Shown here in pieces: positions 10,201 through 38,889 of a stretch of 49,881 nucleotides of DNA. The notes under the pieces are model-generated. The model worked only from the letters and a program-made list of their open reading frames with translations. It did no database searches and was not told where the DNA came from. Position 1 is the stretch's first letter. Each line of letters starts with the position of its first letter. This stretch comes from a virus, in IMG/VR virus record IMGVR_UViG_3300008113_000075, positions 1 through 49,881 of that record; one strand, written 5' to 3'. The translations under genes were made by a program, and so were the position numbers.

Positions 10201-12863
10201 GGATAGAATGAATAATCGAAGTTAGCTGTTGTTATACTTCCTGTTTCATTGCCTCTAGATGATAGGGTAGGAAAAACATTAGATTCTGCAGTCGAAGAAG
10301 AAACTAGTAATTCGTACTCTTCCTCTCCTGGAACACCTATGAAGAAATCCGGACCAGATATAGTATTTATAGGTGATCCTGAAGTTGGATATTTTATTGT
10401 TGCTCCAGAAGAAACATAATAAGTTTTTCCTGGAACTATTTTAGTTGTTCCATCTGGTTGAGTGTCAAGATGTTTATAGTATTCTTTTGTTGGTGTATAT
10501 CCATATTGGCTATACCAAAAATCCATATCTATTTCTCTTAGCCCATAGAATGAGAATATTCCAAGAGGAATGTTGTATGTTTCAAAAGCAGATATACTTC
10601 CAGATGATCCAAATGCTATAGATTCAGTAAAGTTTCCTATCTCTATAGTTGCATGGGTTTCAAAATCCTTTAATCCTATAATATCCCCATTTTTATCCTT
10701 AGAATACTGATCTATAAATCTATATTTCCCTATTACAACTGAAGCTGATTTATTAGAATATTCTGGTATATTTGAGAATGAATCAGTTGAAGTATTCTTA
10801 ATAGTTTCTATGTATGTAGAACCAATATTTATTTTATTCGCGTCCTCTATTTTTACTTTTACTCTAGTTCTCGAATAATTAGATCCTCCTATAAAAGATT
10901 GATTTCTGTTTATATCACATACATCTTTTTCGTTTATAAAAACAGTACCTCTTTCAGAATCTGGCATTCTTTGTAAAGTGGTAAAATCTTTAAAAAAGTC
11001 TAGATGATATTTTTCATTCTCTTGTAATCCAGTAGCTTTAGTTCTTATAACTACCTCGTCGCCAGATTGAAATGCCTCAAAAGAATTATAGTTAAAGCTG
11101 TTAAAAATACCTGTAAGGGATTTAGCTATATCCTCATTAGTACCAAAGGGATGATAATAATAAACATTATCCTGAGCATAAAAGCTTCCTGGACCCCACT
11201 CATCTATAGAAAATGAAAGATCCGATGCTTTTATTATATCGTATTTACCTCCAGGCAATCCATAATAACCTAATGGGTTATAAAATACAAAAGCATTCTC
11301 TGATGAATTGTTTAATTCTTTTCCTATTCTAATAACTGAATATCCCCTACCTTTTTCTCCAGTAGTAACCGCAGGATATTGCTTCTTTGTTCCTTCATCT
11401 TTTCCTGTAAGTATGGAAAGGTCTATTGAAGTATCCTGTATAACTATTTCGTTTTCATATCCGTTTATACCATAGGCCGAATATATTGGTTTAGGAGACA
11501 CGTTAGAATAATTAACATCTCTTTTTAATGAATGAAAATTATCCTTCTTGTCTTTTATCCAAAATAGCTTAGTGTTCTCACTTACATTTACATCGTCGGA
11601 ATTAGGTATTACCCCGTTTACTTTATCATTATCAATAAATAATCTTACACCGTTATCATTATATTGGAAGTAAGGTGTTTCTTCGTAGTAGTATCCTTTA
11701 TTGTTTTTTTCAGGCACTGGAGTATTTCCGGAATTTCCTTGATCTCTATATAAAGAATTACCGTCTAATTTAAAGCTAGCTAACTCCGGTGCATTAACAT
11801 AAAGGCCAAAATATCTGTTTATAGTATAATTTTCCGAATCATTATCATTAAATAAAAATTCAAGATTTAATAGCTTGTAGCTTATTATACCATTATTTCT
11901 AAATCCATTTGTTATGAAATCCTCAAATCCTATTTGAGTCTGTGGATCCTCATAATAATCTAATAAAAAATCCCCCTTCTTATCAAATATACCTACCGAA
12001 TAATTTACTCCATTAAATGTAGTAAGCTGATTTTCCTCAAATCTTACATCTATAAGACTGTCAGTGTATCCAGGATTAGATTTTATTTTTCTTAAATATT
12101 TTCCTATTTTAGAATTCTCTGTTAGATCAAAACTAGCTACAACTGTAGACTTTGGTAGTATCTTATCGTAGAAATGATCTGCAGTATTTTCTACATTATT
12201 TATGTTGTATGATGGATCGAGTAGTATAACATTTCCCTGCCCCTGTATAACATTGAATGTAAAAGCTGTTGCTGTAAATATATTACCGTCAGTAAATGTT
12301 TGTGATCCACTAGATACTTCATATGGAAGATAAAAAGGATCTTGTGTATTTACTGAAGGATCCTGTAGAACCTTATAGGTTTTTCCAGGTTCCAAAGATG
12401 ATACAGGAATCTGATATGAATAATCTATAGGATCATTAACCTTAAATATAACAAAATGGTCCGGTATATCTTCGCCTAACCAAAGGGGTGCTAAATATGA
12501 AAAATCCTCATCATACCTATCAGATATTAAAGGAGATACACCAGAGCTATAAAAAAAGTTATAGCTACTTTCTAGATTTTTTATTTGATTTTGTACAGGA
12601 TCTCCCTCGCCAACCATTCCAAAAACAAATTGCGGGGGGGTTTTTCCATCGTCAAAAAATCTATATAAATCCTTATCGTAAGTAGTATCAGGTGATATTC
12701 TAAAAGCTTTATATGAACTATTAGCCATCTCTTCATTAGAATCTATAGAATTAAGCCATATATCACTTTTAGAGTCAACTGTTAACTTAACATTCCCGGA
12801 TATTCTTGGATTTGCTCTAAGAACCCCGAAAGACGAGTTCTGTTTAATTATCTTTCTTGCCAC
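7236..12863 (-). CDS. Very large virion protein, probable baseplate or fibre component
   Basis: 1875 residues, starting with GTG and opening MARKIIKQNSSFGVLRANPR. It is beta-rich with many Tyr, Asn, Asp and Ser and no membrane segment; I recognise no enzyme motif. The N-terminal 150 residues, with NPRISGNVKLTVDSKSDIWL and later SYLAPLWLGEDIPDHFVIFK, look like a separate, better-ordered domain that may anchor it to the baseplate. Further segments have the look of immunoglobulin-like or jelly-roll strands. It lies 3 bases after the 1159-residue gene and 43 bases before the collagen-fibre gene, so it is part of the left structural operon. Codons 75-77 contain a run of seven cytosines, unusual in this AT-rich genome; see the homopolymer entry. 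The exact role is unknown. Confidence 0.65.
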   Translation of the reverse strand: MARKIIKQNSSFGVLRANPRISGNVKLTVDSKSDIWLNSIDSNEEMANSSYKAFRISPDTTYDKDLYRFFDDGKTPPQFVFGMVGEGDPVQNQIKNLESSYNFFYSSGVSPLISDRYDEDFSYLAPLWLGEDIPDHFVIFKVNDPIDYSYQIPVSSLEPGKTYKVLQDPSVNTQDPFYLPYEVSSGSQTFTDGNIFTATAFTFNVIQGQGNVILLDPSYNINNVENTADHFYDKILPKSTVVASFDLTENSKIGKYLRKIKSNPGYTDSLIDVRFEENQLTTFNGVNYSVGIFDKKGDFLLDYYEDPQTQIGFEDFITNGFRNNGIISYKLLNLEFLFNDNDSENYTINRYFGLYVNAPELASFKLDGNSLYRDQGNSGNTPVPEKNNKGYYYEETPYFQYNDNGVRLFIDNDKVNGVIPNSDDVNVSENTKLFWIKDKKDNFHSLKRDVNYSNVSPKPIYSAYGINGYENEIVIQDTSIDLSILTGKDEGTKKQYPAVTTGEKGRGYSVIRIGKELNNSSENAFVFYNPLGYYGLPGGKYDIIKASDLSFSIDEWGPGSFYAQDNVYYYHPFGTNEDIAKSLTGIFNSFNYNSFEAFQSGDEVVIRTKATGLQENEKYHLDFFKDFTTLQRMPDSERGTVFINEKDVCDINRNQSFIGGSNYSRTRVKVKIEDANKINIGSTYIETIKNTSTDSFSNIPEYSNKSASVVIGKYRFIDQYSKDKNGDIIGLKDFETHATIEIGNFTESIAFGSSGSISAFETYNIPLGIFSFYGLREIDMDFWYSQYGYTPTKEYYKHLDTQPDGTTKIVPGKTYYVSSGATIKYPTSGSPINTISGPDFFIGVPGEEEYELLVSSSTAESNVFPTLSSRGNETGSITTANFDYSFYPDLDSFPGFYGVQSLQFINDLIGLDTKYKQLNFGKLESEYDYTQDNYNPDYAINSRVSPYITKWVYRGGTDVRGNGYRLNNNLAFNPLNFSPSFFRRTQDPQYFTHEWYHLQKPPYSLPEDPLHIDKSYLSGELNESLLLNSNPAVRDYFMDYFSIEGEDLSNYYPTSNTIEDIDLTERYSLFDFNTSSGYSESLYRGAKVRIKRTFTDYAQGESIKYIEDDRFYDNYKFSCVIVPIKNIIDEIQPPVKIKVVENRTFKNITFIIEVLIDDARVLDFEDISPSRQYLDLDYFLLYSLRDKLDSQYFSAPVSSYLPGGLIELPIVGDIKLSSALNISSNPNAQGLFSSVNPGTFGNEGEIYIIPNPEYDTDLRDEVNFTYLPSTQPNPILGPNTTSPGSFYGIAGPAPYSGYVLPFPTGVGEEVVNFTAIAPGYEFDFTDIGIPGPVNIPTIANYTTISNIPIYQRSGGIGYWGNILEKISFANISLWINTGYPYIEYTTYEWDSVNKTNKVLNNQFVLEFLKPSVIEQDNILFPVEITDKPQELTVFNVGYNIDELDGDTEMYRYSGEYVPSFREILKFENVKYDAPFWTMPESLIFYVKIVDKSEDNSTYDLGSTSCIEINGISQGEINLVKGVTYYFDLSDSSNSGYQLYFSESNIGNNITGDSINQGYTLVGTPGNIGSYIVMEVPYDFSSSVFYVCEGGKYMGGDINVIDPIEYSYCSFGPYRDNFGVSKNVNYYKYSPQWIFRIGQNSPYNPVYTLIGETPVDKRNLSIFESSWDAGFYREYTGPTGYNSLPGTKVMKEQKAFFGSKFMQTPDSVNSQKQLIYGQSIKGVLDVNYNNYPNYEILWENTPTELRGVLLVDRMLTRYFLENGGKRTFDQFILPEFGFGTSTDLDDDFKEYMNQNIIPIFQSKNNGGYLKKIPISASQTLTPVIGDLADYQKLINGYFRSSEIRYTKINELRYEFRVPKDPSFNYSVCFSIEIGKI
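12634..12640 (-). repeat. C7 homopolymer tract within the 1875-residue gene
   Basis: Minus strand reads five A then seven C, encoding Lys-Thr-Pro-Pro at residues 74-77. It is the longest C/G run I noticed in the window. Runs of this kind slip during replication, and a slip here would cut the protein off near its start. Confidence 0.6.
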
Positions 12864-12866
12864 TTA

Positions 12867-15800
12867 TTAAATAGTTTTCTTACTTTGAGAATAAGCAGGT
12901 GAAATTAAAGAGGTCTTAGTGTAACTTCCTGTTACTAGAACATCGAAAGAGAAAAGATCCTCATTTTTTACCTGTATATCTATACCTATTTTTTTAGTAT
13001 AGGTAATATTTTTCAAGTTACCTGCAGATCTCCAGCCTCCAACAAATCCAAGCTTATCTTGAGCTCTCATTTGAAAAACTAAAGGAACTGTTATTGCATT
13101 CTCCTCTCCAAATTCTAATGTCTTTTTAGCTAATTGAGTAGATCCTTCTATTTGTATAGCTGTGTGATTAGTCGGTGCTAAGAACAGATAAGATCCGCAA
13201 GAAAATTTACCACATAAAAACTCATCAGTATCTATAAATCCTAGTTTGTTCGGATATGCGTCATCATCAGTACCAAAAGATGAAGAGCTATTTGCTGGAT
13301 AATATTGTAATTGCTGATATGATGCTGTCTGTGAACTTGTTATTGATGATGTTATGTTAGTATCTGTTTCAAATCCTAAAGCATGTCTAAAAGATGGATA
13401 ATCCATTGGTCCTGTAGGAAGAACTGGAGGTCTTATTAAAGTTGCAAAAGGACTACTTCCTCCATCGTTTATATCAGGGTGACTTATATGAATACAAAAT
13501 TCATTAAGATTACCATTACCGGTTGGAGTTCCTGTAGAATAATTTCCGTTCCATATATTAGCATTAACAGAGCCTAAAGGAGTTGTAGTAGGATCAAATG
13601 GCATAAGTATCCCATCATTATTTATAGGTAATCCTGAGGTACCATTACTGATGTTCCATGATAAAGAAGTAGGTGGATCGAAATATAAATTCTCATCTAG
13701 ACCCACACTCTTATATCTCGTATAAACAAATTGAGAATAGGCATTAGCGCTCTGATATCCAGATGCTTGTATGAAAGATCCTGGAGAGGATACATTTACA
13801 TCACCGTTAACTATACCTGATAATTGTACCGGTGTTTCTCCATACTTTCTATTATTATTGTAATCTGATTGTCCAACTATAGAGTTAGGTGCTTTTACTC
13901 CCTGTCCTCCTGGAATTAAAGAGGATAACTCGAGAGGAGTAGCAGCTTCATTTCTAAGCTCTAAATAATATACCACGGTAGATATTTTTCCTTTGTTGCT
14001 AGGATTAGATAAATCTATAAGTTGATCGTAATACCCTGCAAATAAATTTATTGTACTTCCAGGATTTATCTTATTTGATGTGTTTCCACTTCTAACATAA
14101 ACGCCAAGAGTTCCTTTAGCTTTAGCAATAAGTGCTCTAAGAGATTGAAGTTCGTTGTCTATTTGTGTTATCTTTTGAAAAAGATCTAAAGCTTTACCTG
14201 TAGCATCGAAAAATCCTGATGCAATTACTGATGAGTTATGTGCAAAGAATTTATCTCCAGATGTAAATTGTGTAGATAAATGCTGATCTAATCCTTTTGC
14301 TTGTAAATCCTCTTGAACTTTAACTACTGCTTTATCAGTATTGTTCTGTGCTGCAAAAGATGTGTTATCAACCTGAACAACTAAATCTGGTGGGAATTCA
14401 ACTACAGCAGATGTAGACCAATCAGATGTTAAAGGATTAGTTGGCCATCCTGCTTCGGATATCGACTGTACTTGTATTTCTACCTTCTCGCCTTTTGTTA
14501 TAGCTATGTCTAATTGATTTATATTTACCGTATTAGCGTCGCTAACGTCCTCTATTTGCCAAATGTAGGTTCCAGTATCAGTGTCATATACTTTCTTTCT
14601 TACATCGCTTTTAAATTGAACCCAGTTTGTAAATTGGCCAGTTTTTTGTACACCGTTATTGTCTATATAATCGATTTGGTCTACGCCATTCGGGTTACCA
14701 GTTAATGAAAGATATCTGTATCTAACATTAAATTGTATTATATTTTGCTCTCCAGTTTTAGCATCTATTATTGGCTCGGGTATTGGCCAAAATCCTCTTA
14801 CTCTATATTTAGGTGCTTCTGTTAATTCTGGTATAGTTATAACAAGATTGTTTATTTCTGTTATTGTTGTTGATAATAATCCAGTTTTTGTACCTTTATC
14901 TTTAGTTAAAGAAGCTATTTTGTCGTTTAATTTTTTAAACTCAGCATTAGGCGTTTTCTTTACAGATGTAGTTGTTAACTCTGATAGTTGTTTTCTAGTC
15001 TGATCTATTGCTCTATCTATAGAATCTATCTCATTCTTAAGAGAAGTTTTTATTTTAATCTTGTCTTTAAAAGATGTGCTTTCTTTAGAATCTGTTACCT
15101 GAGCATTTATTTTAACAACTTTAAAATTACCAGGGGAAACTACTGGAGCAGAAGGTGTTTGACCATAAATAGAAGGAATAGTATTCTCCTTAGCTGAAGC
15201 AATAAATATTTTTCCAAAGTCGGATACTTGAGAATTGTAAAAGGATTCTAAATTTTTTACACCATCACTAGTTGTAATTTGTAATTCATTAGACCAAAAG
15301 CATATACCTGGACTATATTTACTAGAAGCAACATTAAAGTCTCCATCTATAGATTTAATAAAAATTCCCTGTCTTTCATCAAATCCAACATTTACTTCTA
15401 CTTGTCTGTTAGATAATACATTAGAATATATTGTCAATGATGAATCTCCTATTTGTACAGGTTCAAATCCAAATATTCTTTTTAATACAACAGTTTGATT
15501 TGTAACATCTATTGCAGATACCTCATACTTAGTACCTCCAGCAGTTATTAATAAATCTCCTTTTGATAATGTTCTTGAATTTTCTGTATCTGCTAAGGTA
15601 TCGTTGTATCTTATTGTGTTCAACTTATACTTTCTTACTGTTACAGTAGTTGTTGTACCACTCTCAGTATTTTGTACCTCTTCGTCGAATATTCTAAGAA
15701 CTCCAAAAGATCCAGTATATCTTATAGTCCTTAATTCAAGGTTATTTATTTGCTCGTCTATAAAATATTGTATTCCTTGGCTTTCTAAAGCTCCTATAAG

Positions 15801-16346
15801 ATCAGCATCAGTTATATCGTTTCTTCCCTTTAGATTATTATCAAAGTACTGTTTTTGTACATCAGATTGTGTGTTTGCGATTATTCTTTTTACGTAAACA
15901 TTTTCCGAATTTTCAGGTATTTGATTCTCTACGTCTATCTCAACATAAAGAAGAGGGTTAAGAAACGATTCAAAAAACCAGTTATTCCTTGCCTGAAAAG
16001 TTGAAGGTACTTGTAAGCTAGACGGGGAAGAAGGATCCTTTAGAACTTTAGCCTGATATATTTTAGCAACAGTTCCATCCGCATTTCTTACGTTTGCTCT
16101 ATTATCCTCAAGACCAGATAAAGATTTAATGTTTTGATCTAATCTGTTTATCTCAGACTTTAAAAATCCGAAAGAAGGAACCTGTATATTTTCGGATGTG
16201 TTATCATCTTTTAAAAATTCTATCTCTACAGTATCCTTAGGGGATGTTGTTAAGTCATTAAGTTTATTAATAATCTCTAGAGAGTTCTTTTGAAGTCTAA
16301 GAAATTGTGCTATTAAGGATGAAAATGAGTTTTTCGTATTCGACAT
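12867..16346 (-). CDS. Large virion protein with coiled coils and fibronectin-like region
   Basis: 1159 residues. Residues 1-75 form a predicted coiled coil (SSLIAQFLRLQKNSLEIINK onward). A second coiled coil lies at about 422-485 (IDSIDRAIDQTRKQLSELTT). Between about 510 and 655 the pattern YRVRGFWPIP, then YRYLSLTG, then IAITKGEKVEIQVQSISEAG resembles fibronectin type III-like domains often found in tail proteins. The C-terminal third is beta-rich and ends in a strand-rich domain (ITYTKKIGIDIQVKNEDLFS). Four bases separate it from the 727-residue gene and three from the 1875-residue gene, so the three are almost certainly co-translated partners. It is probably a trimeric baseplate-attached spoke or fibre; no receptor-binding motif is recognisable. 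Confidence 0.65.
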   Translation of the reverse strand: MSNTKNSFSSLIAQFLRLQKNSLEIINKLNDLTTSPKDTVEIEFLKDDNTSENIQVPSFGFLKSEINRLDQNIKSLSGLEDNRANVRNADGTVAKIYQAKVLKDPSSPSSLQVPSTFQARNNWFFESFLNPLLYVEIDVENQIPENSENVYVKRIIANTQSDVQKQYFDNNLKGRNDITDADLIGALESQGIQYFIDEQINNLELRTIRYTGSFGVLRIFDEEVQNTESGTTTTVTVRKYKLNTIRYNDTLADTENSRTLSKGDLLITAGGTKYEVSAIDVTNQTVVLKRIFGFEPVQIGDSSLTIYSNVLSNRQVEVNVGFDERQGIFIKSIDGDFNVASSKYSPGICFWSNELQITTSDGVKNLESFYNSQVSDFGKIFIASAKENTIPSIYGQTPSAPVVSPGNFKVVKINAQVTDSKESTSFKDKIKIKTSLKNEIDSIDRAIDQTRKQLSELTTTSVKKTPNAEFKKLNDKIASLTKDKGTKTGLLSTTITEINNLVITIPELTEAPKYRVRGFWPIPEPIIDAKTGEQNIIQFNVRYRYLSLTGNPNGVDQIDYIDNNGVQKTGQFTNWVQFKSDVRKKVYDTDTGTYIWQIEDVSDANTVNINQLDIAITKGEKVEIQVQSISEAGWPTNPLTSDWSTSAVVEFPPDLVVQVDNTSFAAQNNTDKAVVKVQEDLQAKGLDQHLSTQFTSGDKFFAHNSSVIASGFFDATGKALDLFQKITQIDNELQSLRALIAKAKGTLGVYVRSGNTSNKINPGSTINLFAGYYDQLIDLSNPSNKGKISTVVYYLELRNEAATPLELSSLIPGGQGVKAPNSIVGQSDYNNNRKYGETPVQLSGIVNGDVNVSSPGSFIQASGYQSANAYSQFVYTRYKSVGLDENLYFDPPTSLSWNISNGTSGLPINNDGILMPFDPTTTPLGSVNANIWNGNYSTGTPTGNGNLNEFCIHISHPDINDGGSSPFATLIRPPVLPTGPMDYPSFRHALGFETDTNITSSITSSQTASYQQLQYYPANSSSSFGTDDDAYPNKLGFIDTDEFLCGKFSCGSYLFLAPTNHTAIQIEGSTQLAKKTLEFGEENAITVPLVFQMRAQDKLGFVGGWRSAGNLKNITYTKKIGIDIQVKNEDLFSFDVLVTGSYTKTSLISPAYSQSKKTI

Positions 16347-19552: not shown

Positions 19553-20254
19553 ATGTTTCTCAAAATAAAAAAAAATCTTATGGTTACAGGAAGCAATTGG
19601 ACTCAAAAAAGAAAACCCAAAAATCCCATCAAATTTAAAATCAATTTAAATGAGGAGCAAAAGGATGCTAAAGCTATTATTTTAGAAAATCCGGTAAATG
19701 TTCTTAAGGGTGCAGCAGGATCAGGTAAAACCTTGCTAGCGGTACAAATAGCTTTAGATATGCTATTTAATAGGGAGATTGAAAAGCTAGTTATTACTAG
19801 ACCGACAGTAGCAAAAGAGGATATAGGATTCCTTCCAGGGGATCTTAAAGAAAAGATGGATCCGTGGTTAGCTCCTATTTATGCAAATCTAGAAATGGTC
19901 TACGAAAAAACCAAGATTGAAAAATTACTAAGTGAAGGAATAATAGAAATACTTCCATTTCCTTTCATGAGAGGTAGAACATTAGTTAATTCTTGTGTAA
20001 TTGTTGACGAGGCACAAAACGTAACTATGAGTCAGATGGAAATGGTACTAGGAAGACTTGGTATAGGTTCTAAAATAATAATATGTGGTGATACTTCACA
20101 GATAGATCTAAAGAACAAAAAGGAATCTGGACTAGATTTTATGAATACTCTTTCTGCAAGAGTTCCGGGGGTTAAAGTTATTACTCTTAAGAAAAATCAC
20201 AGACACCCTATAGTTCCTGAAATATTAGATGTGTACAAGGAGTATACAACATAG
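19553..20254 (+). CDS. phoH: PhoH-like ATPase
   Basis: 233 residues of the PhoH family, P-loop ATPases related to the N-terminal half of superfamily 1 helicases. Walker A is GAAGSGKT at residues 53-60, Walker B is VIVDEAQN at 149-156, and IICGDTSQIDL follows at about 177-187. KKNHRHPIVPEILDVY near the end carries the conserved basic patch. PhoH is common in large phages; its role there is unsettled, with RNA metabolism and phosphate stress proposed. Two starts are possible: the ATG at 19553, or one at 19580 after a run of nine A. Neither has a clear ribosome site, and residues 1-9 look like low-complexity leader. It is the only plus-strand gene and converges with the 2258-residue gene, leaving 14 bases between stops. 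Confidence 0.92.
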   Translation: MFLKIKKNLMVTGSNWTQKRKPKNPIKFKINLNEEQKDAKAIILENPVNVLKGAAGSGKTLLAVQIALDMLFNREIEKLVITRPTVAKEDIGFLPGDLKEKMDPWLAPIYANLEMVYEKTKIEKLLSEGIIEILPFPFMRGRTLVNSCVIVDEAQNVTMSQMEMVLGRLGIGSKIIICGDTSQIDLKNKKESGLDFMNTLSARVPGVKVITLKKNHRHPIVPEILDVYKEYTT

Positions 20255-20268
20255 AAGATGAATAGGAA

Positions 20269-23200
20269 TTAATCTATATCGAACCTAGATAGAGGTGGAA
20301 ACCCTAATTCTTTTCTATCGTAATATATTGTTCTTAGTAAGTAATCATTAGGATTAACAACCTCTGGTTTAAGATCTCCAGCAAAAGCTTCCTTATGATC
20401 TATAACTCTTATTTTACCAGAATGTGATGTTTCGTAAATGTTACCATTTGCATCCTGAAGTTCACAAGCGATAGAATAGAATCCAGGATTTAAGAATGTC
20501 CATATAAAATATGGGGACTTTCTTATTTTAACTATAACTTCACCAGTTTCTGTATCGCTTAAAGTCCATATGTGGTCTTTCTTTCCAGGGATTAAAGAAT
20601 CTATCGGATTTATAAATATAGTGGTTGCTAAAGGTATTTCAAATTCATCTCTATAGAATTTTTCCTCCTTCCAAGACCATGCGTGAGACCCAAGCCAAGA
20701 TTGTACTGATCCTATCTTATTACCACCTTTGAATCTTTCCTTTGGTATTTTTCCTAAGAAAGCATCTAGATTTCCTCCAGGTGGGGATAAAATAACATAA
20801 GGTGAAAATTCAGATTCCCCTTCAAAATAACCAGTTATATAAATATTTTCTTCTTTATCCAAAACTAGATCAGCTCCTGAATCATTGTTAATACCTCCAG
20901 CTGTTACTATATCTACTAATAATCCATCCTTATTGAATTTAGTTAAATATATGTCTGTTCCCCCTCTTGATTCTATTTCCTCCGGAGAAAAATACGCTGG
21001 TGAAGTGTATGATCCTGTTATATAAACATTTTCCTCAGAATCACTTTCTATATCGTGAGCAGTATCACCCCCCAATCCTCCGCACATTTTCATCCAAATC
21101 AATTTTCCAGTGGACAACAGTTTTATTACAAATATATCAGTTGTTCCAGGGAATGAAGATAATGTCTGGTCCTCTATTTTTATAGTTCCTTCATATGAAC
21201 CACTAATTAATACGTGTCCATTAGGATCTAAACATATTGATGAAGAGCCAAAAGATGTGGAAGAATCGTATCCAATACTATTAGCCCATAAGCATTCCCC
21301 GTCTCCTGTATAGAATTTAGCTATAAACATATCAGGATTACCCACACCGGTTAATTGTATAGGTCCTAAATCTATCTGAGAATCAAATACCCCAGTTAAA
21401 TAAAGGTATTCTTCTTTTAGTATTCCTATCTCATATGCTTTAGAATACGTGGTATTCGTAAATTGCTTAGCCCAAACAAAAGTCATAGAAGGATCTAATT
21501 TAGCTAAGAATCCAGAATCTTGTCCGGTTGATATTAAAGATGACGAGCCAAGGATTAGATTTCCTTGGAATCCTCCACATATATAAATATTTTCATACTT
21601 ATCTACTTTAATATCGCCTATGTATTGATCTGGTGTAATAGGTATATTCAAAGAATTTAATAAAACACCATCAAAATTAAACTTATCTATTTGTATAAAT
21701 CCAGTAAGATTATTATCGCTAACTACATATATGTTTCCATTCGTATCTGTTATAACAGATCTAGCATAAATAGGGCCTTGAGGTGATGTTGATGCTATAG
21801 ATCTAGCCCATTGTATAACTCCGCCTTTATTATATTTAGCTATATAAACTCCTTGGTCTAATGATGTTAGATATAGATCCTGAGTACCTATATTATTAAC
21901 CTCACCCATAAATATAGTACCAGTAAAGTCTCCAATAGCTATTATGTCACCCTCGTTGTCTACTGTAACCTTGACACCCTGGTCAGGATTGCTATTACCT
22001 AGTGTTATAACCCATTCGAAATTATCAAAAAGATCCCTAGATTTTTTCTTAGCTATTCTCTCTATTTGGGAGTTTTTCCAGTAAGGTTCTTTATTGGCTT
22101 TGCCGTTTAAAATATCTCTTAAGGGAGCGTATAAGAAGACATCGTCTATATTCAAAGATGGAAATTGGTCTTTCAATCGATCGATGCTGTAGCGCTGCCA
22201 AATAGGCTTATACCAAGAATATCTATCAACATTAGGCATGATAGGTCTGGTGTAATCTGAATTTAAAGTTATATTATCATAATAAGGGCCAACTATAAAG
22301 TTAAAACCTAATTGTGATGTGCCTATACCAGAATCAAAAATATATTCTACTGACGGAAGAGGACTAGAAGTATCATGATAAATAAAATCCCATCCATTAG
22401 TACCAGGATCCTTAGATGTCGCCTGTATATGAGGTATTATATAATCTATTTTACCTATCTCTCCATCCTTTGTTAGAATTAAAAGATTCTTAGGGAAAGT
22501 TGTTTCCCCATTTTTAATAGTTTTCCATGGTGCGGATAATGATATCTTACCAAAATTACAATCAACAGGATTTATAAGAGTAGTTCCATCATTTCTATAT
22601 AAAACTTTAGTAAAATAGTATCCATCGAAATAATAAAGCTCTGTATTAGAAGGGGAAGAACTAGAATCTATAGTAAACCATATATTACTGTTTCCTGTTT
22701 CTATTATGCTTTTTACAGATCCTAAATTTAGTTCAGGATTAGTAGCATTGTTCCAAACCGCCCATCTTATATCATCCCAATAAACTAAACCATCGGAAGT
22801 TCCTATCCATTTATGATTTAGCTTATCTAATTCAATAGAATAAACATTATTTGAAGGAATACCTGAGTTACCTATATTATAGTTTTTAAAATTAACCCCA
22901 TCAAATCTAGAAATTCCGTTATCTGTTGCTATCCATAAGTACCACTTGTTTATCGAGTAATATTGTAATTTAAGATCTCTTATATTATCGGAAGGTATAT
23001 CAGAATTAGAAGTTGTATAAAGATTCCAAGATTTTGCACTAGAATCATAGAAAAGTAATCCGTCATAAGAAGGTGAAGAGTTGCAAGTAAATCCTGCAAA
23101 TATGTCCCCTCTCTGCGGATTTATTTCTATACAATTTATACTAGAAGGTGTTATAGGAGATATTGGATTTCCTCCATTATCTACAAAATCATTAACAGAA

Positions 23201-26200
23201 TATGCAAAACTATCTGATGGATCTTTCTCGTTTATTTTAACTAGAGGTACAAGATTGTTTTCTAATCCTATCCATTTTATATCATTTCTATCTATTTTTA
23301 TACAATTAGTAAGAAGAGATACTCCAGGCATTACACTGTTACTTGAATCATAATTTGTGTAATTAACACCATCGAATTTTATGACATCCTCACCGGTTAC
23401 CCATATATCACCATCAGCATCCCAAGCTATTCCTGTAGGTTCAAATAGTACAGGCGAATAAGTAGGAACTTTATAAAATTTAGATTGTATATTTTTAGGT
23501 CCTGGATTTGTACTAAGATCTGGAGATATGGGATTAGCGTTAGGATAAAAATTATTAGAAAGCTCTGAAAATCCTCTTACAACATAATCAAACCTTTTTA
23601 TATTTTCGTCTATAGAATTGTTTAACTGATCCGCAGCTTCCTTAAGATCTAAATAATTATTTCCGGGAGAATCAGTCTCACCAAATACTAATCCATTAGA
23701 ATCTTCAGTAACCTTAACCCTATCTCCATATTGTAATGAATATAGATTAAACCCTCCTAGCCAATCATTATGATAATCGTACATATCCCAAGTATGGGCA
23801 TAAGCTTTTTCGAAAGAAAAATCTTCAAAAGTTTCCCACGATAAGCTTTTAGTTCCCCAATATCTCATTTCCTTCTTAGGTAATAAATTGAAGTCATAAT
23901 AAACATACTCCTCCCTTTCATTTAATCCGCCAGAGAAGGTGTTAATTGGAGTAGTTATTAAAAGAGATCCAGTTGTCTGAACTATAAATTGTTTACCGTT
24001 CCAAAGACTTCCAGAATTATTAGGTGCTTGAACTGTAAAAGTTTTATAATTAGTAGTAACAGAATCCACTAAATTTATAACCTTATACTTAGGATCTAGA
24101 GGAGACGAATTAATTATACTATATGCTAAGCTAGTAGTTGAGTTTAAATCTCCTTGGAAATTACAGTCTGCTATTAAAACAGCATCAGCATAAAATTTAA
24201 TATTACCTGTTCCATAAACATATCCTCCAGTTATTGCTGTTATAATAATCTCCGGTATTTGGAATGTGTTAGTTCCTGTTACTGTAATAGGATATTGACC
24301 TAATGAAGATCCTAAAGAATCATATATCCAAACAGTATTCCCCGACGAGTATCCATGGGGAGTTAATGTTGTAACTTCAGCTAAATCATATCCTCCTCCA
24401 ATATAGTTACTAACTATTGTTGCTATGTCAATTTGTTGAACTCCGACATCAAACGTAACGGTAGATTTTACCTCTGGTAATTTGGTTAATACCTCACATT
24501 GCTGTCCCTCATTAAAATTATTAGAATACTCTGGGTAATTCTGTATAAAATCAGATATGCTTAGTATTTTATTTGTGTTTTCTACTGGGAATATCCATTG
24601 TGAAGGATAGCTTTCCCATTTCAAAGGCATATTATCCCAATCATAACTTTCAGATTCCCTGAATCTAGTTAATGTATTTAATTCTATTCCTCTCTTATCT
24701 ACTTTTACTACGCCCCTTTTTATACCTAATGATATAGAATTCAATGTATCCCAAACCCTACATTTTATATTATATTCACCAGAGTAAGGTAAGAAATGAA
24801 CTATAGTTTCCAATTCTGGTAATCCTCCTCTTGTTTGATAGTAGTAAGGCTTATCGTCATCGTCTTTATAAATAGTCCATTCTATCTCATAAAAATCTAA
24901 ATAAGGTAATCTATTCCATGAATAGAATCCATTACTCTGTATAAAGTTCTCATAATAATCAAATACGTATGAACTGAACCCTAAATTAGTAGGACTCACT
25001 TTCCAATTTGAATATTCTCCAGCTCCTCTAGTATAAATCATCTGTATATAGAGGTTTCCTGTTAATGTATTATAGTCTCCAGCACTACAATATCCAAGAA
25101 CTAAATTTCCTGGCGAATCTACTGACTCAACCCTTACAAAAATAACATCTGGAAAAGTTGTGTCGAACCAATTATTTCCTGTGCCTATATTAATATTAAT
25201 TCCCACAGGGAATGTGGTTGGCAAAGTAAATAATGAAGTGCTATAAACTGTTTGTAAGCTACCCCCAGGATTAGGAGATGTAGTGCTTGAATAGCTAGCT
25301 ATTTGTAAGTCTGTTCTAGTTATTGTTGGATCTAAAGAGTTCCAGCTTCCACTCAATTCTTCCCAAGATAGATTAAAGGTATCATTTTTTATAATAACTG
25401 GACATCCAGCGGGAAAAACATAATCACTACCATCAGAGAAAAGTTTATATCCAGGAGGATCATAATCTCCGTCACCTAAAAATTTAGGCATTTCTCCATT
25501 TGTAATGTCCTGATAGAAAAGATTTACTGCATTTTCTAATGATGGTATAGTGGAGATAGGATATTCTTGAAAATATGAATAAGGATCTACTGTGTTTCCG
25601 TAATAGCTTATTCCCTCTTCTACTCCATTTATATTTGGATATAAAAGACCGCTCTGATTTGGTTTTGTATAGAAAGGTCTAAGATCTTCTACGTATCCTC
25701 TTTCGGGATAAACATTAAAACCTACTTTTATACCCCCTTTTATTTCAGTGATATCTACAACATCAGTCCATCCTCTTGTTTTATATAAATTAAAATATAC
25801 ACCCTCTCCTGTAATATCTATTATCCTAGCATTTAAGGGAAGGTAGTCTCTTTTAAGTCTTTGCTTTAATCCAAAAAGTTTTATTAGTACCTCTTCTGGA
25901 CTAAAAGCAAAAGCATCTTCAACTATTGGATATCCGTACTGATCCTCCTCCTGATCTTCTACTACTCTATTTATATCATAGAATAATCCAAATAAAGCAG
26001 TTTTCTTATAAGACTTGGACGGGAAAAGACTTTCGAATTGTTTTTTTAAACCAAACGTACCGTCTTTTTTCTTACCGTATATTTCTACCTGCTTAAACTT
26101 TCCCTGGTTCTCATCCTTTATTAAACTACTTATTAGTTCCAATTTATTAAGTCCCTCTATATTAGGCTGGCTTAATTGATTTAATATTTTTTGGTTTTGT

Positions 26201-27045
26201 TGTAGTGGGGTAAGGGTATCTGCTTCGTCAGTTTTTATATTAAGCCAATATTCTTTAACTCTTAGATCATAATAACCAAAGAATTTTATAGCATTAAAAA
26301 GAGATTTATATGATCCTAAATAAGGGAAAATACTCTCTCCTGCTAATAAAAGCTCCTTTCTTTTTTTGTTTATTATTTCGTAGTCAGGAAACTCTTCTTT
26401 TATATCACTTTCTCTTACTATTAAAGCATCATCTGGATTAAAAGATCTTCCGAAATTGGAGAGAGTAACAGACAATCTGCTATCTTCCCCTTCAACCTCA
26501 CCATGTAGTTCTACTTTTAATATAGTTACTGGGTTATTAGGATCTGTATAATCCTCTATTATTAATCTCCTATCATATATTCCTTCGCTATCAGAATTTA
26601 AAGCTATGTTTATCTGCATAGAAGATGGACTGATATCACTACTAACAACCAATCCGCTAGGAGATGCTACAACGTCACCAGGAACTATCTCTGGGTAAAA
26701 TTCTACGTTATTCGCTTTAACTAATACAGGAGCATCAAGATTTCCATCCACTCCCAATTCATATGTGTATATGATAGAAGAAACATTAGTACTTCCATCA
26801 TAATCTGATTCCCATCTTGTTCTCCATACGGAAGGACCTGGACTAACACCATATGAATGTGGAAAACCATATTTTATTTCAGATAGAGGGTTTAGAAATT
26901 TTTCTATTATAAATATATGTTGGACCTCAAAAAGCTTCTCAGAAACAATAGGGAAAAGTATTGCACCCTCCCAATAATTACCATTCCATACAAAATTATA
27001 TTGATCACCTTTTTTATCAAAAAATAAAAGATTTTGAAAATTCAT
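20269..27045 (-). CDS. Giant baseplate-associated protein with two predicted beta-propellers
   Basis: 2258 residues. Residues about 1-480 form a non-repetitive domain (LFGLFYDINRVVEDQEED near 350, then LKQRLKRDYLPLNARIIDIT) that may be the baseplate-binding part. Its position just after gp6 matches T4 gp7, a large wedge protein, but homology is not shown. Residues about 1195-1485 contain six or seven repeats such as WIATDNGISRFDGVNFKNYN and HKWIGTSDGLVYWDDIRWAV, the pattern of two-component-regulator propeller repeats. Residues about 1678-2100 contain seven SBBP-type repeats, for example ENVYITGSYTSPAYF and GGTDIYLTKFNKDGLLV, enough for one seven-bladed propeller. PKD-like Ig folds are suggested near 765-800 and 2130-2220. 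It starts 1 base after the 81-residue gene. Propellers bind ligands or proteins, so host-surface binding or decoration is likely but unproved. Confidence 0.7.
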   Translation of the reverse strand: MNFQNLLFFDKKGDQYNFVWNGNYWEGAILFPIVSEKLFEVQHIFIIEKFLNPLSEIKYGFPHSYGVSPGPSVWRTRWESDYDGSTNVSSIIYTYELGVDGNLDAPVLVKANNVEFYPEIVPGDVVASPSGLVVSSDISPSSMQINIALNSDSEGIYDRRLIIEDYTDPNNPVTILKVELHGEVEGEDSRLSVTLSNFGRSFNPDDALIVRESDIKEEFPDYEIINKKRKELLLAGESIFPYLGSYKSLFNAIKFFGYYDLRVKEYWLNIKTDEADTLTPLQQNQKILNQLSQPNIEGLNKLELISSLIKDENQGKFKQVEIYGKKKDGTFGLKKQFESLFPSKSYKKTALFGLFYDINRVVEDQEEDQYGYPIVEDAFAFSPEEVLIKLFGLKQRLKRDYLPLNARIIDITGEGVYFNLYKTRGWTDVVDITEIKGGIKVGFNVYPERGYVEDLRPFYTKPNQSGLLYPNINGVEEGISYYGNTVDPYSYFQEYPISTIPSLENAVNLFYQDITNGEMPKFLGDGDYDPPGYKLFSDGSDYVFPAGCPVIIKNDTFNLSWEELSGSWNSLDPTITRTDLQIASYSSTTSPNPGGSLQTVYSTSLFTLPTTFPVGININIGTGNNWFDTTFPDVIFVRVESVDSPGNLVLGYCSAGDYNTLTGNLYIQMIYTRGAGEYSNWKVSPTNLGFSSYVFDYYENFIQSNGFYSWNRLPYLDFYEIEWTIYKDDDDKPYYYQTRGGLPELETIVHFLPYSGEYNIKCRVWDTLNSISLGIKRGVVKVDKRGIELNTLTRFRESESYDWDNMPLKWESYPSQWIFPVENTNKILSISDFIQNYPEYSNNFNEGQQCEVLTKLPEVKSTVTFDVGVQQIDIATIVSNYIGGGYDLAEVTTLTPHGYSSGNTVWIYDSLGSSLGQYPITVTGTNTFQIPEIIITAITGGYVYGTGNIKFYADAVLIADCNFQGDLNSTTSLAYSIINSSPLDPKYKVINLVDSVTTNYKTFTVQAPNNSGSLWNGKQFIVQTTGSLLITTPINTFSGGLNEREEYVYYDFNLLPKKEMRYWGTKSLSWETFEDFSFEKAYAHTWDMYDYHNDWLGGFNLYSLQYGDRVKVTEDSNGLVFGETDSPGNNYLDLKEAADQLNNSIDENIKRFDYVVRGFSELSNNFYPNANPISPDLSTNPGPKNIQSKFYKVPTYSPVLFEPTGIAWDADGDIWVTGEDVIKFDGVNYTNYDSSNSVMPGVSLLTNCIKIDRNDIKWIGLENNLVPLVKINEKDPSDSFAYSVNDFVDNGGNPISPITPSSINCIEINPQRGDIFAGFTCNSSPSYDGLLFYDSSAKSWNLYTTSNSDIPSDNIRDLKLQYYSINKWYLWIATDNGISRFDGVNFKNYNIGNSGIPSNNVYSIELDKLNHKWIGTSDGLVYWDDIRWAVWNNATNPELNLGSVKSIIETGNSNIWFTIDSSSSPSNTELYYFDGYYFTKVLYRNDGTTLINPVDCNFGKISLSAPWKTIKNGETTFPKNLLILTKDGEIGKIDYIIPHIQATSKDPGTNGWDFIYHDTSSPLPSVEYIFDSGIGTSQLGFNFIVGPYYDNITLNSDYTRPIMPNVDRYSWYKPIWQRYSIDRLKDQFPSLNIDDVFLYAPLRDILNGKANKEPYWKNSQIERIAKKKSRDLFDNFEWVITLGNSNPDQGVKVTVDNEGDIIAIGDFTGTIFMGEVNNIGTQDLYLTSLDQGVYIAKYNKGGVIQWARSIASTSPQGPIYARSVITDTNGNIYVVSDNNLTGFIQIDKFNFDGVLLNSLNIPITPDQYIGDIKVDKYENIYICGGFQGNLILGSSSLISTGQDSGFLAKLDPSMTFVWAKQFTNTTYSKAYEIGILKEEYLYLTGVFDSQIDLGPIQLTGVGNPDMFIAKFYTGDGECLWANSIGYDSSTSFGSSSICLDPNGHVLISGSYEGTIKIEDQTLSSFPGTTDIFVIKLLSTGKLIWMKMCGGLGGDTAHDIESDSEENVYITGSYTSPAYFSPEEIESRGGTDIYLTKFNKDGLLVDIVTAGGINNDSGADLVLDKEENIYITGYFEGESEFSPYVILSPPGGNLDAFLGKIPKERFKGGNKIGSVQSWLGSHAWSWKEEKFYRDEFEIPLATTIFINPIDSLIPGKKDHIWTLSDTETGEVIVKIRKSPYFIWTFLNPGFYSIACELQDANGNIYETSHSGKIRVIDHKEAFAGDLKPEVVNPNDYLLRTIYYDRKELGFPPLSRFDID
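20740..22015 (-). repeat. Seven SBBP-type beta-propeller repeats (coding)
   Basis: Part of the 2258-residue gene, residues about 1678-2100. Seven units of about 50-65 residues each carry a (E/G)-N-(I/V)-Y-(I/V)-(T/C)-G strand; most have a later (F/Y)-(I/L)-(A/T)-K-(F/Y/L) strand and four begin with W-(A/M)-(K/R/N). The DNA has diverged, so the duplication is old. Confidence 0.7.
22590..23460 (-). repeat. Six or seven regulator-propeller-type repeats (coding)
   Basis: Part of the 2258-residue gene, residues about 1195-1485. The units share a W-(I/V)-(A/G/T) strand followed by (I/L)-x-(K/R/Y)-(F/W/Y)-D and an N-Y/N-Y-T strand. The pattern is that of repeats in the sensor part of hybrid two-component proteins of Bacteroidota. 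Confidence 0.55.
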
Positions 27046-27046
27046 C

Positions 27047-27292
27047 TTATCTTACGTATTTATTATCTTTTGGAACGGTATAATTAAAATAGTTCTTTAT
27101 ATACTTAGCTGCTTCGAACCAGTTATAAACAACTTTTTCCATACTAGCTAAAATATCCATCCTATTAGAATCTCCGTCTAATACAGGATTAGAAAGTGTT
27201 TTTTCGAATATTTTACCTTCATAATCAAATCCCAAATTAGATCTATCGTCGTTTTGGGTATTTATAAATTCGTACCAGCTTTTTTTATCCAT
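27047..27292 (-). CDS. Small protein between gp6-like and giant baseplate genes, unknown
   Basis: 81 residues opening MDKKSWYEFINTQNDDRSNL, with a predicted helical C-terminal half (MDILASMEKVVYNWFEAAKY). No recognised motif or membrane segment. The start and stop are each one base from the neighbouring genes, so it is translated as part of the baseplate block. By position it could be a small wedge component or an assembly factor. It is well supported as a gene by its tight packing and ordinary composition, but its function is unknown. Confidence 0.65.
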   Translation of the reverse strand: MDKKSWYEFINTQNDDRSNLGFDYEGKIFEKTLSNPVLDGDSNRMDILASMEKVVYNWFEAAKYIKNYFNYTVPKDNKYVR

Positions 27293-27293
27293 T

Positions 27294-28991
27294 TTAATTT
27301 CCTGTATTTAAAGAACTTTTTAATATGCTATTTACTTTGGAATTATAAGTATTAGCTACTATAGATCTAATATCTATGTTTATAGAAGAAAGAGTTGTCA
27401 TACCAGCTCCTAGATCATAATATATTCCATTCCTATCTTCCCATCCCCCCGATATTATAACTATCTCATCTTTTCCTATAACTATATCACCAAATTCATC
27501 AAATCCTATCTCTGGTGAATTTGGACTTTGTGCTTTAGCTGCTTCGTTTTCTTCCCCTACAAAATATAAAGAAACTGAATCTACACCCTGTATAGCCTCA
27601 ACAGCTGCAATTAAATCTGATCTAGGTATCTTATCCCTTCTTCTTATATTTAAGAAATAGTCACTCATAGTGTTTACTATCTGCGATTTTATGGTATCGG
27701 GATCATTACCTTCAAATATAGTAATAGCTATGTTTATTACATATTTTTTTATTACAGGATCTAGTATTTTAACCTCAGTTGTAACTATTTTCTGTCCACT
27801 TTCGTCTAACAAAGCGTAAATACTATTTCTTTGTGCATTAGTTAATTTAAATCTTGATACTGGTATATCAAAATATGTTTCATTACTTTTTAGTGTTATC
27901 TGTATATCAGGAACTAAGATAAGGTATATTATATTGTCGTCATCTATGTATTGATCATCAAAAGTTGTAAATGCTTCTATTATAGAAAACTGACCAAATT
28001 TTTCAAAATAAGTTATGTAATTAGTCGGATTGGCCAAGACAAAACTTCTTGAAGTTTTAGGTGCTATTAATCTAGTTAAATCTATAGATTCTTGATTAGC
28101 TCCTAATTGTGGAATAACTGTACAGCTAACGCTTAAAACTTCAGAAAGAGTTACACCATTACCAAAAAGATCTGTACCCTCCGAATCGAAATTAAATATT
28201 ATCTGTGAAGAATCCTCTACTATAATATTTCCACTAGATCCAGCAGATTCTAAATAATTTACTTGTATAATAGAGCCAGGTGCTGGAGGAAGACCAAAAT
28301 TTGTATTACCAAAGAAAATGTCTATACCAGATATTATAGAGCTTCTGACTATATAGCCTCTACCATTTCTAGGTATGTCGTATAAAGATTCGTATCTTTT
28401 CCACTCCACTCCGTTTATTTTTACGTCAACCTCGAAGTTTTCTATTCCAGAAGTACCTCTGGAAGATATATTAAAGCTCTGTAAAATATCTCCAGATCCA
28501 GTATATTGATTAGTACTTATTGTTCCTTCTATTATAGAACAAAGTAAATTGGAAGACCCATCTAAATTTAATCTAGTATATTCTTGTGGAAATTTCAATA
28601 GATATGTTTTTCCATTGTTGACACATTTTATTTCAGAGTTTTTTGGAATTAAAACCGCGCCACCTCCTATATTTTCTGCGCCCCTACCATTCCATTTTAT
28701 AAGTACCTCTCCTTTTGCTGATATACTTCTTGTTGGATTATGGCCAGCAAGAGTAGCAAGACCGTATACGGATGATTCTCTAGTTGCGGTATTAATATTT
28801 AATTCCGTTATGGAATCTTCAATAAAAAATAAAACAAATTGTGAAAGATTGTCAAGTACAAATATTATCTGACCCCATACAGAAGCTACAGTAAATAATT
28901 GGTTAGACATCCCATATCTTGCCTGTATTAACTCAAAAGTTTGGGTTAGAAGGTCGGATATTTTAGCGTTACTTTTCGATAATAAATCCAT
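27294..28991 (-). CDS. gp6: Baseplate wedge protein, gp6 / baseplate J-like
   Basis: 565 residues (T4 gp6 has 660). Typical features are the N-terminal helical region ending in a hydrophobic stretch (TVASVWGQIIFVLDNLSQFV), followed by TATRESSVYGLATLAGHNPT and AKGEVLIKWNGRGAENIGGG, which match the conserved part of gp6 and gpJ baseplate proteins. The C-terminal part has YFLNIRRRDKIPRSDLIAAV, similar to the J-family segment that joins wedges. In T4, gp6 dimers form the inner ring connecting six wedges. It lies 2 bases after the gp25-like gene, the order seen in T4-like and Mu-like phages, which strengthens the call. Confidence 0.75.
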   Translation of the reverse strand: MDLLSKSNAKISDLLTQTFELIQARYGMSNQLFTVASVWGQIIFVLDNLSQFVLFFIEDSITELNINTATRESSVYGLATLAGHNPTRSISAKGEVLIKWNGRGAENIGGGAVLIPKNSEIKCVNNGKTYLLKFPQEYTRLNLDGSSNLLCSIIEGTISTNQYTGSGDILQSFNISSRGTSGIENFEVDVKINGVEWKRYESLYDIPRNGRGYIVRSSIISGIDIFFGNTNFGLPPAPGSIIQVNYLESAGSSGNIIVEDSSQIIFNFDSEGTDLFGNGVTLSEVLSVSCTVIPQLGANQESIDLTRLIAPKTSRSFVLANPTNYITYFEKFGQFSIIEAFTTFDDQYIDDDNIIYLILVPDIQITLKSNETYFDIPVSRFKLTNAQRNSIYALLDESGQKIVTTEVKILDPVIKKYVINIAITIFEGNDPDTIKSQIVNTMSDYFLNIRRRDKIPRSDLIAAVEAIQGVDSVSLYFVGEENEAAKAQSPNSPEIGFDEFGDIVIGKDEIVIISGGWEDRNGIYYDLGAGMTTLSSINIDIRSIVANTYNSKVNSILKSSLNTGN

Positions 28992-28993
28992 AT

Positions 28994-29365
28994 TTATAAT
29001 ATTTTAATTCCTAATATAGGATTACCCTTTATTGCAAAATCTATTACACAGGCATCTCTTGTTTCTCCTCTTAAAAATCCTATTGTGTATTTCACGTCGA
29101 AAATACTAAAGGCCATAGGAACATATGTGGCTAAGTGAATATCTATTGCTCTTGATAGCGTTGATTCGTCAACCTCGAGATCAAATATTAATCCCTCTAG
29201 ATCTATACCAAAATAAGGATCTCCTAAAACCTCACCTGGCCTCGAGAGCATACAATTTTTAATCATCCCTATCAAGATTTCCACATCATCATTAGTGTGA
29301 AGAAACCCTTCCTTATAATTAGGATCTTGAGGTCCCCTCGGATAAATTTCACTTAATCTTGCCAT
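28994..29365 (-). CDS. gp25: Baseplate wedge protein gp25-like (GPW/gp25 family)
   Basis: 123 residues (T4 gp25 has 132). MIKNCMLSRPGEVLGDPYFG, followed by IDLEGLIFDLEVDESTL, is the characteristic gp25/GPW region, in which a helix is followed by G-(E/D)-x-x-x-D/N-P-x-(F/Y)-G. The second half has the family's beta sheet (FSIFDVKYTIGFLRGETRDA). gp25 nucleates the sheath on the baseplate in T4-like phages; despite the old name it is not an active lysozyme. It is directly followed by the gp6-like gene, as expected. The 108-base gap upstream holds a hairpin and an A/T-rich motif, suggesting a transcription unit starts here. Confidence 0.8.
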   Translation of the reverse strand: MARLSEIYPRGPQDPNYKEGFLHTNDDVEILIGMIKNCMLSRPGEVLGDPYFGIDLEGLIFDLEVDESTLSRAIDIHLATYVPMAFSIFDVKYTIGFLRGETRDACVIDFAIKGNPILGIKIL

Positions 29366-37962: not shown

Positions 37963-38889
37963 CTAAACTCCTGTTATTCCTGTAGCTCCAGTAGGTCCTG
38001 TAGCAGATCCTGTTACACCTGCTCCTGTTACACCTGCTCCTGTCGGATTAGGTATACCTACCGGAGAATCATTATTTATTGGAACAACAGGAAAATCAGG
38101 GGAATTTTCTCTTGTTACTCTAACAGTCTGACTTGTAGCAAGCTGTTCAAAGCTAGATGCTAAAGTTGAATTAACCCCTGGGGTAGCTGGAAGTTTACTG
38201 TCTATAGATATTGCTAATTTTTTAAGAAAGTCCCAAAGAGGTTCTGCACATACAGCAGAGAACAAAGGAGAATGACCCAAGTTGGTTGTTTTTCCGTCCA
38301 TCCAAACTTCTTCAGAACTATGTTTAATTCTTGTTATAGCAGTATTCTCTATTTCTTGATCCGCATACTTAGTTATCTTTCCGCCTTTTAATTCTATAGA
38401 TGATGTGTCATCAGCATGAGTTATTAGTATAGAGTTATCATTTCTTATTATAATTTTAGATTCTTTTAAATCTATTACAAGACCTTTCTCTACAGTATAA
38501 TACATTTTAAGTCTCTCTATCCCATCATAAATAATAGAATGAGCTCCATCATAACTAGCACTTATCTCTTCAATTAAATCTGGAGCAAGTTCCTGTACAG
38601 CTTTGTATTCTGGACTATAATAATTACCATTATTAAATTGAACGTGAACTACCGATCCTAATTTAGGAACAGACATTCTACCAGATCCTCCTCCTAATCC
38701 ATAACTCTGTTCAAATCTTTGATGTGCCCAAGGAAGATCCTCGTCTAGTATATCTGGATCAAAAACCCCAAAGACTCTAATCTTAGCTCTACCTTTGAAT
38801 TCTGGATCCTTGTTATCTACAACAACACCTAAATAATGAGAGATCTCAATATTAGGTCTTTCTAATTTATTTCTGTCTACTAATCCCAT
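37963..38889 (-). CDS. gp5: Baseplate hub spike, gp5-like OB-fold protein without lysozyme domain
   Basis: 308 residues. The N-terminal OB-fold of T4 gp5 and P2 gpV is recognisable: YLGVVVDNKDPEFKGRAKIR, then VFGVFD, LPWAHQRFEQSYGLGGGSG and KLGSVVHVQFNNGNYYSPEY. A short repetitive stretch at about 135-205 (KGLVIDLKESKIIIRNDNSI) is consistent with a small beta-helical spike. T4 gp5 has an internal lysozyme domain; none is present here. The last 28 residues are Gly/Thr/Val-rich (TGAGVTGAGVTGSATGPTGA), a collagen-like tail. In T4 this protein sits on gp27 and pierces the outer membrane. The gp27-like gene lies two genes upstream, with the 851-residue gene between. Confidence 0.75.
   Translation of the reverse strand: MGLVDRNKLERPNIEISHYLGVVVDNKDPEFKGRAKIRVFGVFDPDILDEDLPWAHQRFEQSYGLGGGSGRMSVPKLGSVVHVQFNNGNYYSPEYKAVQELAPDLIEEISASYDGAHSIIYDGIERLKMYYTVEKGLVIDLKESKIIIRNDNSILITHADDTSSIELKGGKITKYADQEIENTAITRIKHSSEEVWMDGKTTNLGHSPLFSAVCAEPLWDFLKKLAISIDSKLPATPGVNSTLASSFEQLATSQTVRVTRENSPDFPVVPINNDSPVGIPNPTGAGVTGAGVTGSATGPTGATGITGV
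38011..38040 (-). repeat. Tandem 15-base repeat at the end of the gp5-like gene
   Basis: Plus strand TGTTACACCTGCTCC occurs twice back to back. It encodes the Gly-Ala-Gly-Val-Thr repeat in the C-terminal tail of the gp5-like protein. Being exact at DNA level it is a recent duplication. Confidence 0.8.

Follow-up and report, generated by a model that had tools for sequence, protein, structure and literature searches.

What is a protein with two beta-propellers of different families doing among the baseplate genes of a phage? The question arises in a virus record of 49,881 bases (the window, meaning the whole stretch of DNA analyzed), where a 2258-aa ORF runs from 27045 to 20269 on the minus strand, with an ATG start and its stop included. 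Our preferred answer, to which we give a probability of about one half, is that this is a baseplate-wedge-type protein in the gp7 position whose scaffold sits in the baseplate and whose inserted propellers face outward as a conserved module for adhesion to the host surface. The gene (20269..27045) has relatives at 43 IMG/VR loci, and the sole PHROG match of its product is phrog_28177, a family of unknown function (9.6e-24). At 30 of these loci the relatives, which lie in other contigs, match from end to end within one ORF, so the two-propeller ORF is no assembly accident; at the other 13 the match is partial, mostly cut by a contig end, and in one of them (L042) the frame is broken near residue 1782.

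The neighborhood points to a tail. Upstream on the same strand come an 81-aa ORF (27047..27292), a gene for a gp6-like baseplate wedge subunit (27294..28991; phrog_219, 2.4e-26), and a gene for a gp25-like wedge subunit with a weak match (28994..29365; phrog_261, 0.026), while a hub/lysozyme-type protein is encoded farther upstream (37963-38889; 2e-14). Downstream lie a 1875-aa protein that matches a tail-fibre family (5e-8) and, at 4412-7192, a protein of collagen-like type. Judging from the wedge and hub matches, the phage is probably contractile-tailed. Its host is probably a Bacteroidota; homologues occur mostly in phages recorded from that phylum (Prevotella, Tenacibaculum, Chryseobacterium, and Flavobacterium), with phage PAU recorded from Sphingomonas. 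Ribosomal protein S21, which one report describes from lake Bacteroidetes phages (PMC9723584), was present in 1 of 11 contigs tested. The window also holds a PhoH-like gene on the opposite strand inside the tail cluster (19553-20254), a 1159-aa protein (12867-16346) matching a PHROG of unknown function (phrog_29329, 8.8e-148), and, at its end (47501-49633), PHROG matches of methyltransferase-, glycosyltransferase-, and DAHP-synthase-like type.

An initial annotation had placed the protein where T4 has gp7, and as a statement about position this is sustained: in T4 the gene for gp7 follows gene 6, and here the gene follows that of the gp6-like protein, with the difference that the 81-aa ORF lies in between. 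The isolate phage MA9V-2 has size-matched genes in the same order (117, 552, 83, and 915 aa, sequence being compared for the 915-aa gene), its 83-aa gene standing in the place of the 81-aa ORF. Kinship with gp7 is another matter. Profile-profile comparison against six gp7 sequences gave E values of 0.17-0.66 for the whole protein and 0.075-0.9 for sub-regions, which is no match, and we know of no propeller in T4 gp7. A model of the core is poor (pLDDT 58) and has no PDB match under 1e-3, and the propeller-less core, compared with solved structures, found only a PKD protein at 0.061. This failure to show kinship, together with the poor core model, counts against the preferred explanation, as does the gene order in two other phages: the annotation of MaF61 shows no gp6-like gene next to the homologue, and the wedge gene of pT24 comes two genes after it. 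The missing gp7 match and this gene order would also suit a surface or secreted protein that acts separately and lies in the baseplate cluster by chance, the MaF61 and pT24 homologues not standing directly after a gp6-like gene. We regard that as very improbable, because the N-terminal core is found again in phages recorded from Prevotella, Tenacibaculum, Chryseobacterium, Flavobacterium, and Sphingomonas, because the PTm1 homologue comes close after an annotated baseplate wedge gene, and because the window gene directly follows the gp6-like and 81-aa genes.

The protein divides into seven parts, all on the minus strand. Residues 1-460 (N1-N2; 25666..27045) are a conserved phage core, most conserved over residues 171-440, pieces of which are common to Lak, Tenacibaculum, Chryseobacterium, and PAU phages. 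The middle of the scaffold (residues 461-1059; 23869..25665), defined by domain profiles, includes a part at about residues 715-860 that we read as Ig-like from the strand pattern of a moderate-confidence model. The L region (residues 1060-1181; 23503..23868) is the last part ahead of propeller A (PA, Reg_prop type; residues 1182-1537; 22435..23502), whose seven predicted blades draw on repeats, AlphaFold, and a profile; in clade-C relatives L is the last part of the core gene. Between the propellers lies the S region (residues 1538-1671; 22033..22434), disordered or unmodelled in the prediction and present also in a propeller-less relative, L291. Propeller B (PB, SBBP type; residues 1672-2100; 20746..22032) again has seven predicted blades, here from Pfam, profile, repeats, and model, and is followed by a C-terminal PKD/Ig-like domain (residues 2106-2258; 20272..20730; PKD 0.036, below the cut-off), which propeller-less homologues have as well. 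Pfam recognised no carbohydrate-binding module in the 2258-aa protein, a further point against the preferred explanation.

That there are two propellers, of different type as first annotated, is agreed on by repeats, profiles, and AlphaFold. PB passes the Pfam SBBP threshold (PF06739; 2.8e-6, 27.6 bits against a cut-off of 20.5) and matches the NCBIfam SBBP lipoprotein family at residues 1660-2075 (1.2e-30), where its 106.7 bits are far below the curated cut-off of 400; its family profile finds CylK in the PDB at 1.4e-23. PA, scored on this protein alone, reaches 0.005 and 17.3 bits with Pfam Reg_prop (PF07494). Because this is under the cut-off of 20.4, we call it Reg_prop-type and do not file it as a member of PF07494; clade-C relatives straddle the same cut-off, L105 at 21.4 and the fuller L223 at 19.4 bits. 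The assignment to both families held at the Pfam level for SBBP and fell short there for Reg_prop, yet the PA family profile leads to the sensors BT4663 (4a2l; 4.3e-24) and BT3049 (3v9f; 6.5e-18). Internal repetition is strong in both. Comparing first and second halves gave a repeat score of 97 in PA (shuffle mean 37.9) and of 110 in PB (shuffle mean 35.7), and none of 500 shuffles reached either score. Four further regions of the protein behaved ordinarily (187, 310, 341, and 226 of 500 shuffles). Summed blade-to-blade scores gave z values of 23.9 for PB and 5.8 for PA over 300 shuffles, with blade limits drawn by eye.

An AlphaFold model of residues 1160-2258, computed from 33 aligned family sequences, had a mean pLDDT of 73.2 and a pTM of 0.47, so the mutual placement of the domains is not fixed by it. 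Local confidence is good in the propellers (mostly 80-95 in PA and 70-94 in PB) and under 50 for 133 residues of the S region. Seven blades are predicted in each propeller. In the DSSP line of the model we read PA as seven groups of four strands; the limits given earlier for its six or seven repeats, about residues 1195-1485, were a little short of the present ~1182-1537. The same reading gives PB seven A-B-C sets, of which some include additional hairpins, and six D strands inside; the seventh D strand appears to be supplied by the N-terminal strand at ~1678-1682, and propellers are commonly closed by their N-terminal strand. A single closed seven-bladed propeller at ~1672-2100, as the initial annotation had supposed for the SBBP part, is therefore what the model predicts, and PB superposes on CylK with a Z of 43.8 and an rmsd of 2.3 Å over 374 residues at 22% identity. 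The 50 VIA-align rows listed all fall on PB and are silent on PA. Whole-model Foldseek matches include Bacteroides sensors and PorZ, with a large rmsd because these matches span two propellers, as well as virginiamycin B lyase (2z2o).

CylK (7ron, 7fh6) is a cyanobacterial alkylating enzyme, and the closest solved fold of PB thus belongs to an enzyme; with a lyase also among the Foldseek matches, it might be asked whether the propellers cleave or modify a surface polysaccharide. We think this very improbable. The likeness to CylK is one of shared fold at 22% identity, and the Pfam matches include no enzyme family. Predicted structures of phage proteins also resemble the model, the likeness being at that level: Q5GQG3 of cyanophage S-PM2 (6.6e-16), V5USF6 of ACG-2014h (1.7e-15), and gp424, gp425, and gp427 of Bacillus phage G (2.9e-12, 1.5e-8, and 1.0e-12).

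How the propellers came to be in this protein can be read from relatives that have none. Five phages with a recorded host (MaF61, MA9V-2, PTm1, pT24, and PAU) carry a propeller-less homologue of 857-1037 aa, measured from stop to stop. In LR756500, a 999-aa homologue follows the profile colinearly through positions 3-274, 343-458, and 544-822, and matches also at 1069-1154 weakly (0.19) and at 2150-2207 (7.1e-6). L291, from a 374-kb contig, encodes a 1003-aa protein in which N, the Ig-like part, L, S, and C follow one another and both propellers are missing; the PA and PB profiles have no match anywhere on that contig. Since L291 keeps the flanking domains, sequence comparison indicates an older phage scaffold of 800-1120 aa that received two insertions at separate points. 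In a tree of 70 hand-picked cores, the 47 propeller-bearing rows group together with support of 95/88, and L291 attaches to them at 99/99; the L291 branch is long, which makes its exact place less sure. The 24 rows with split genes form one group at 100/100. The ancestor would accordingly be a scaffold of the form N-...-L-S-C that gained a Reg_prop-type seven-bladed propeller between L and S and an SBBP seven-bladed propeller between S and C.

The earlier idea that host-type propellers had been captured is borne out as to insertion into an older scaffold and the resemblance of PA to Bacteroides sensors; a donor was not found. A search for a bacterial donor of PB returned 68 stretches matching the patterns, none a PB relative, which says little because the patterns are phage-specific. 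A Leptospira phage match was set aside: it is a separate propeller gene, and the surroundings in its record show no baseplate gene. In three huge phages (L049, L050, and L051; 636-735 kb) the core homologues have some 880-1400 aa after a match to core residues ~3-50. One contig titled as a Bacillota MAG (L350, JAKPAB010000039.1) carries a two-propeller protein of 2222 aa and probably represents phage sequence binned as bacterial.

Variation at the insertion points bears on what the propellers do. Of 322 core ORFs, 127 are distinct; the counts that follow draw on best-hit lists (the best 80 of 421 and the best 80 of 331) and are not frequencies. Forty-five of the 127 are fused with PA and 44 of these also with PB (41 with both propellers, three more fused and cut at the 3' end, and one PA-bearing and cut); in 36, PA is in a separate ORF downstream in the locus. 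Another 22 are propeller-less scaffolds with a C domain, 11 are complete and match none of PA, PB, and C at threshold, including the five isolate phages (in which the C domain is seen weakly or not at all), and 13 are cut by the end of the contig or locus. In clade C the part with the propeller is encoded as a polypeptide of its own. Of the 36 distinct coreless PA ORFs, the C domain is present in 33, a stretch that replaces PB in 35, and PB itself in none; likewise, the PB profile matches nowhere on three large contigs of clade C (348, 373, and 435 kb). The replacing stretch, 550-730 aa in the seven members looked at, matches no Pfam family over cut-off in the seven scanned and nothing in the PDB, and the one indication that it is related to PB (P 0.021 over 53 columns) was not accepted. 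Between the split parts, L105 encodes a PKD-headed 577-aa protein (11788-13518; 0.00065, below cut-off), and L103 (13006-13974), L108, and L116 have an ORF of ~325-346 aa there, with no Pfam match for that of L103.

Other relatives carry modules at PA. In L253 (7519-12753) and L251 (7720 onward), PA is broken at the same point, after profile position 73-76, by ~350-415 aa, which in L253 form a nested DUF5122 propeller (9e-77 over seven stretches; delta-60 repeat, 1.3e-49). L098, in clade B, has an F5/8 type C domain between L and PA (6.8e-11; ORF residues ~1353-1451). Six other clade-B members scanned have CBM_5_12-like matches between two pieces of PA, all below the curated cut-off (0.00016-0.0086), which counts against the preferred explanation; some of these rows are near copies of one another, and the first PA piece is weak. 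In L051 (642 kb), CBM_5_12 passes narrowly near the C-terminus of the homologue (6.7e-6; 26.5 against 26.2 bits). A separate PA gene in 36 of the 127 cores, with the nested DUF5122, F5/8 type C, and CBM_5_12-like inserts, argues for a site that tolerates insertion, and the clade-C split together with inserts at PA suggests that it is exposed. The sugar-binding type of the inserts points to glycans as ligand and, since such modules recur at the same place, suggests a part that aids hold on the host surface. On the preferred reading, the scaffold would anchor the protein in the baseplate, and the propellers would face outward and bind glycans or a protein of the host surface; we infer that the 2258-aa protein is present in the virion with this orientation and that it binds glycans.

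The main rival to adhesion is a structural role, with the propellers serving as rigid supports for protein contact within the baseplate, for instance in docking tail fibres or the next wedge, and having no host ligand. Phage tails do use propellers structurally: according to one report, the seven-bladed propeller of the T7 gp12 nozzle constricts the channel and accounts for the strongest subunit contact (PMC6702177), albeit in a podovirus and as a structural element of its tail. A separate propeller polypeptide such as that of clade C, if present in the virion, must also attach to something there. Set against this are the three large clade-C contigs without a PB match, the stretch without accepted PB kinship that takes its place in the seven members looked at, the scaffolds that manage without both propellers (L291 and others), and the sugar-binding-type modules at PA, which fit an exposed site better. 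Precedent from T7 gp12, with the conservation described below, keeps a structural role in play as a serious possibility, which we rate well short of even.

Elsewhere, propellers of phage tails are so far known one at a time. Among the listed matches in the open-access PMC literature, at the level of titles and openings of abstracts, none was a phage protein uniting Reg_prop and SBBP propellers, in line with the initial annotation, which knew of no phage baseplate protein so arranged; single tail or baseplate propellers qualify that statement. One report (PMC4901313) describes two: PhiKZ gp131C (4GBF), a seven-bladed propeller at the periphery of a myophage baseplate with unproven function, and phi11 Gp45, a baseplate propeller with a cavity that could hold GlcNAc. 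The first, likened here by description, has one C-terminal propeller, whereas the window protein has two of different families set in a scaffold; the second is a five-bladed, trimeric receptor-binding protein of a Staphylococcus siphophage, and the propellers of the window protein are predicted to be seven-bladed. Other reports mention Kelch-type proteins of a jumbo phage, among them one virion protein (PMC5259590), propeller lectins in contractile injection systems (PMC12923769), and a further single-propeller precedent (PMC10607447). BT4663 and BT3049 have Reg_prop propellers, which the PA profile matches; they are hybrid two-component periplasmic sensors of Bacteroides, whereas in the window protein the second propeller is SBBP-type and scaffold lies in between.

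What sets this family apart is that one lineage preserves a readable history on one baseplate-type protein: the scaffold without inserts, the scaffold with two propellers, the gene divided at an insertion, and one propeller nested in another. A bolder view, which we hold as rather doubtful, is that the wedge protein is a chassis with two slots and carries glycan-sensing parts. The first slot, between L and S, would take a propeller that hosts sugar-binding-type modules or a nested second propeller, and the gene could be split there; the second, between S and C, would take an interchangeable large module, the SBBP propeller or a different one. If so, conserved glycan-sensing parts would sit on the baseplate itself, apart from the tail fibres. 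Should the parts bind glycans, large Bacteroidota phages would carry adhesion on the baseplate wedge, a site suited to the study of how phages recognize glycan-coated hosts.

Rates of change qualify any such role. Receptor-binding parts are usually the most variable of a phage. In 12 contigs the window protein has counterparts that are 54-82% identical (12 of 12), compared with 68-86% for the gp6-like protein (12 of 12), 55-80% for the 1875-aa protein (11 of 12), and 44-71% for the collagen-like protein (10 of 12, some contigs ending inside it), which in the same contigs has no match past residue 846 of 926. Mean pairwise identity among 16 sequences was 0.68 for PA and 0.68 for PB, within the 0.61-0.82 of the other parts; it is therefore not in the propellers that the adsorption apparatus changes fast, and the greater variability than neighboring structural proteins by which a receptor-binding protein might be recognized is absent. 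This ordinary variability favors the structural alternative and counts against the preferred explanation. The suggestion of receptor-binding arms is thus not borne out at the level of strains, the propellers being about as conserved as the rest and the collagen-like neighbor more variable. Adhesion by the propellers, or sensing, would instead be a conserved step, distinct from that of the more variable collagen-like fibre. The collagen-like protein, the least conserved of the four proteins compared, is a candidate host-range fibre.
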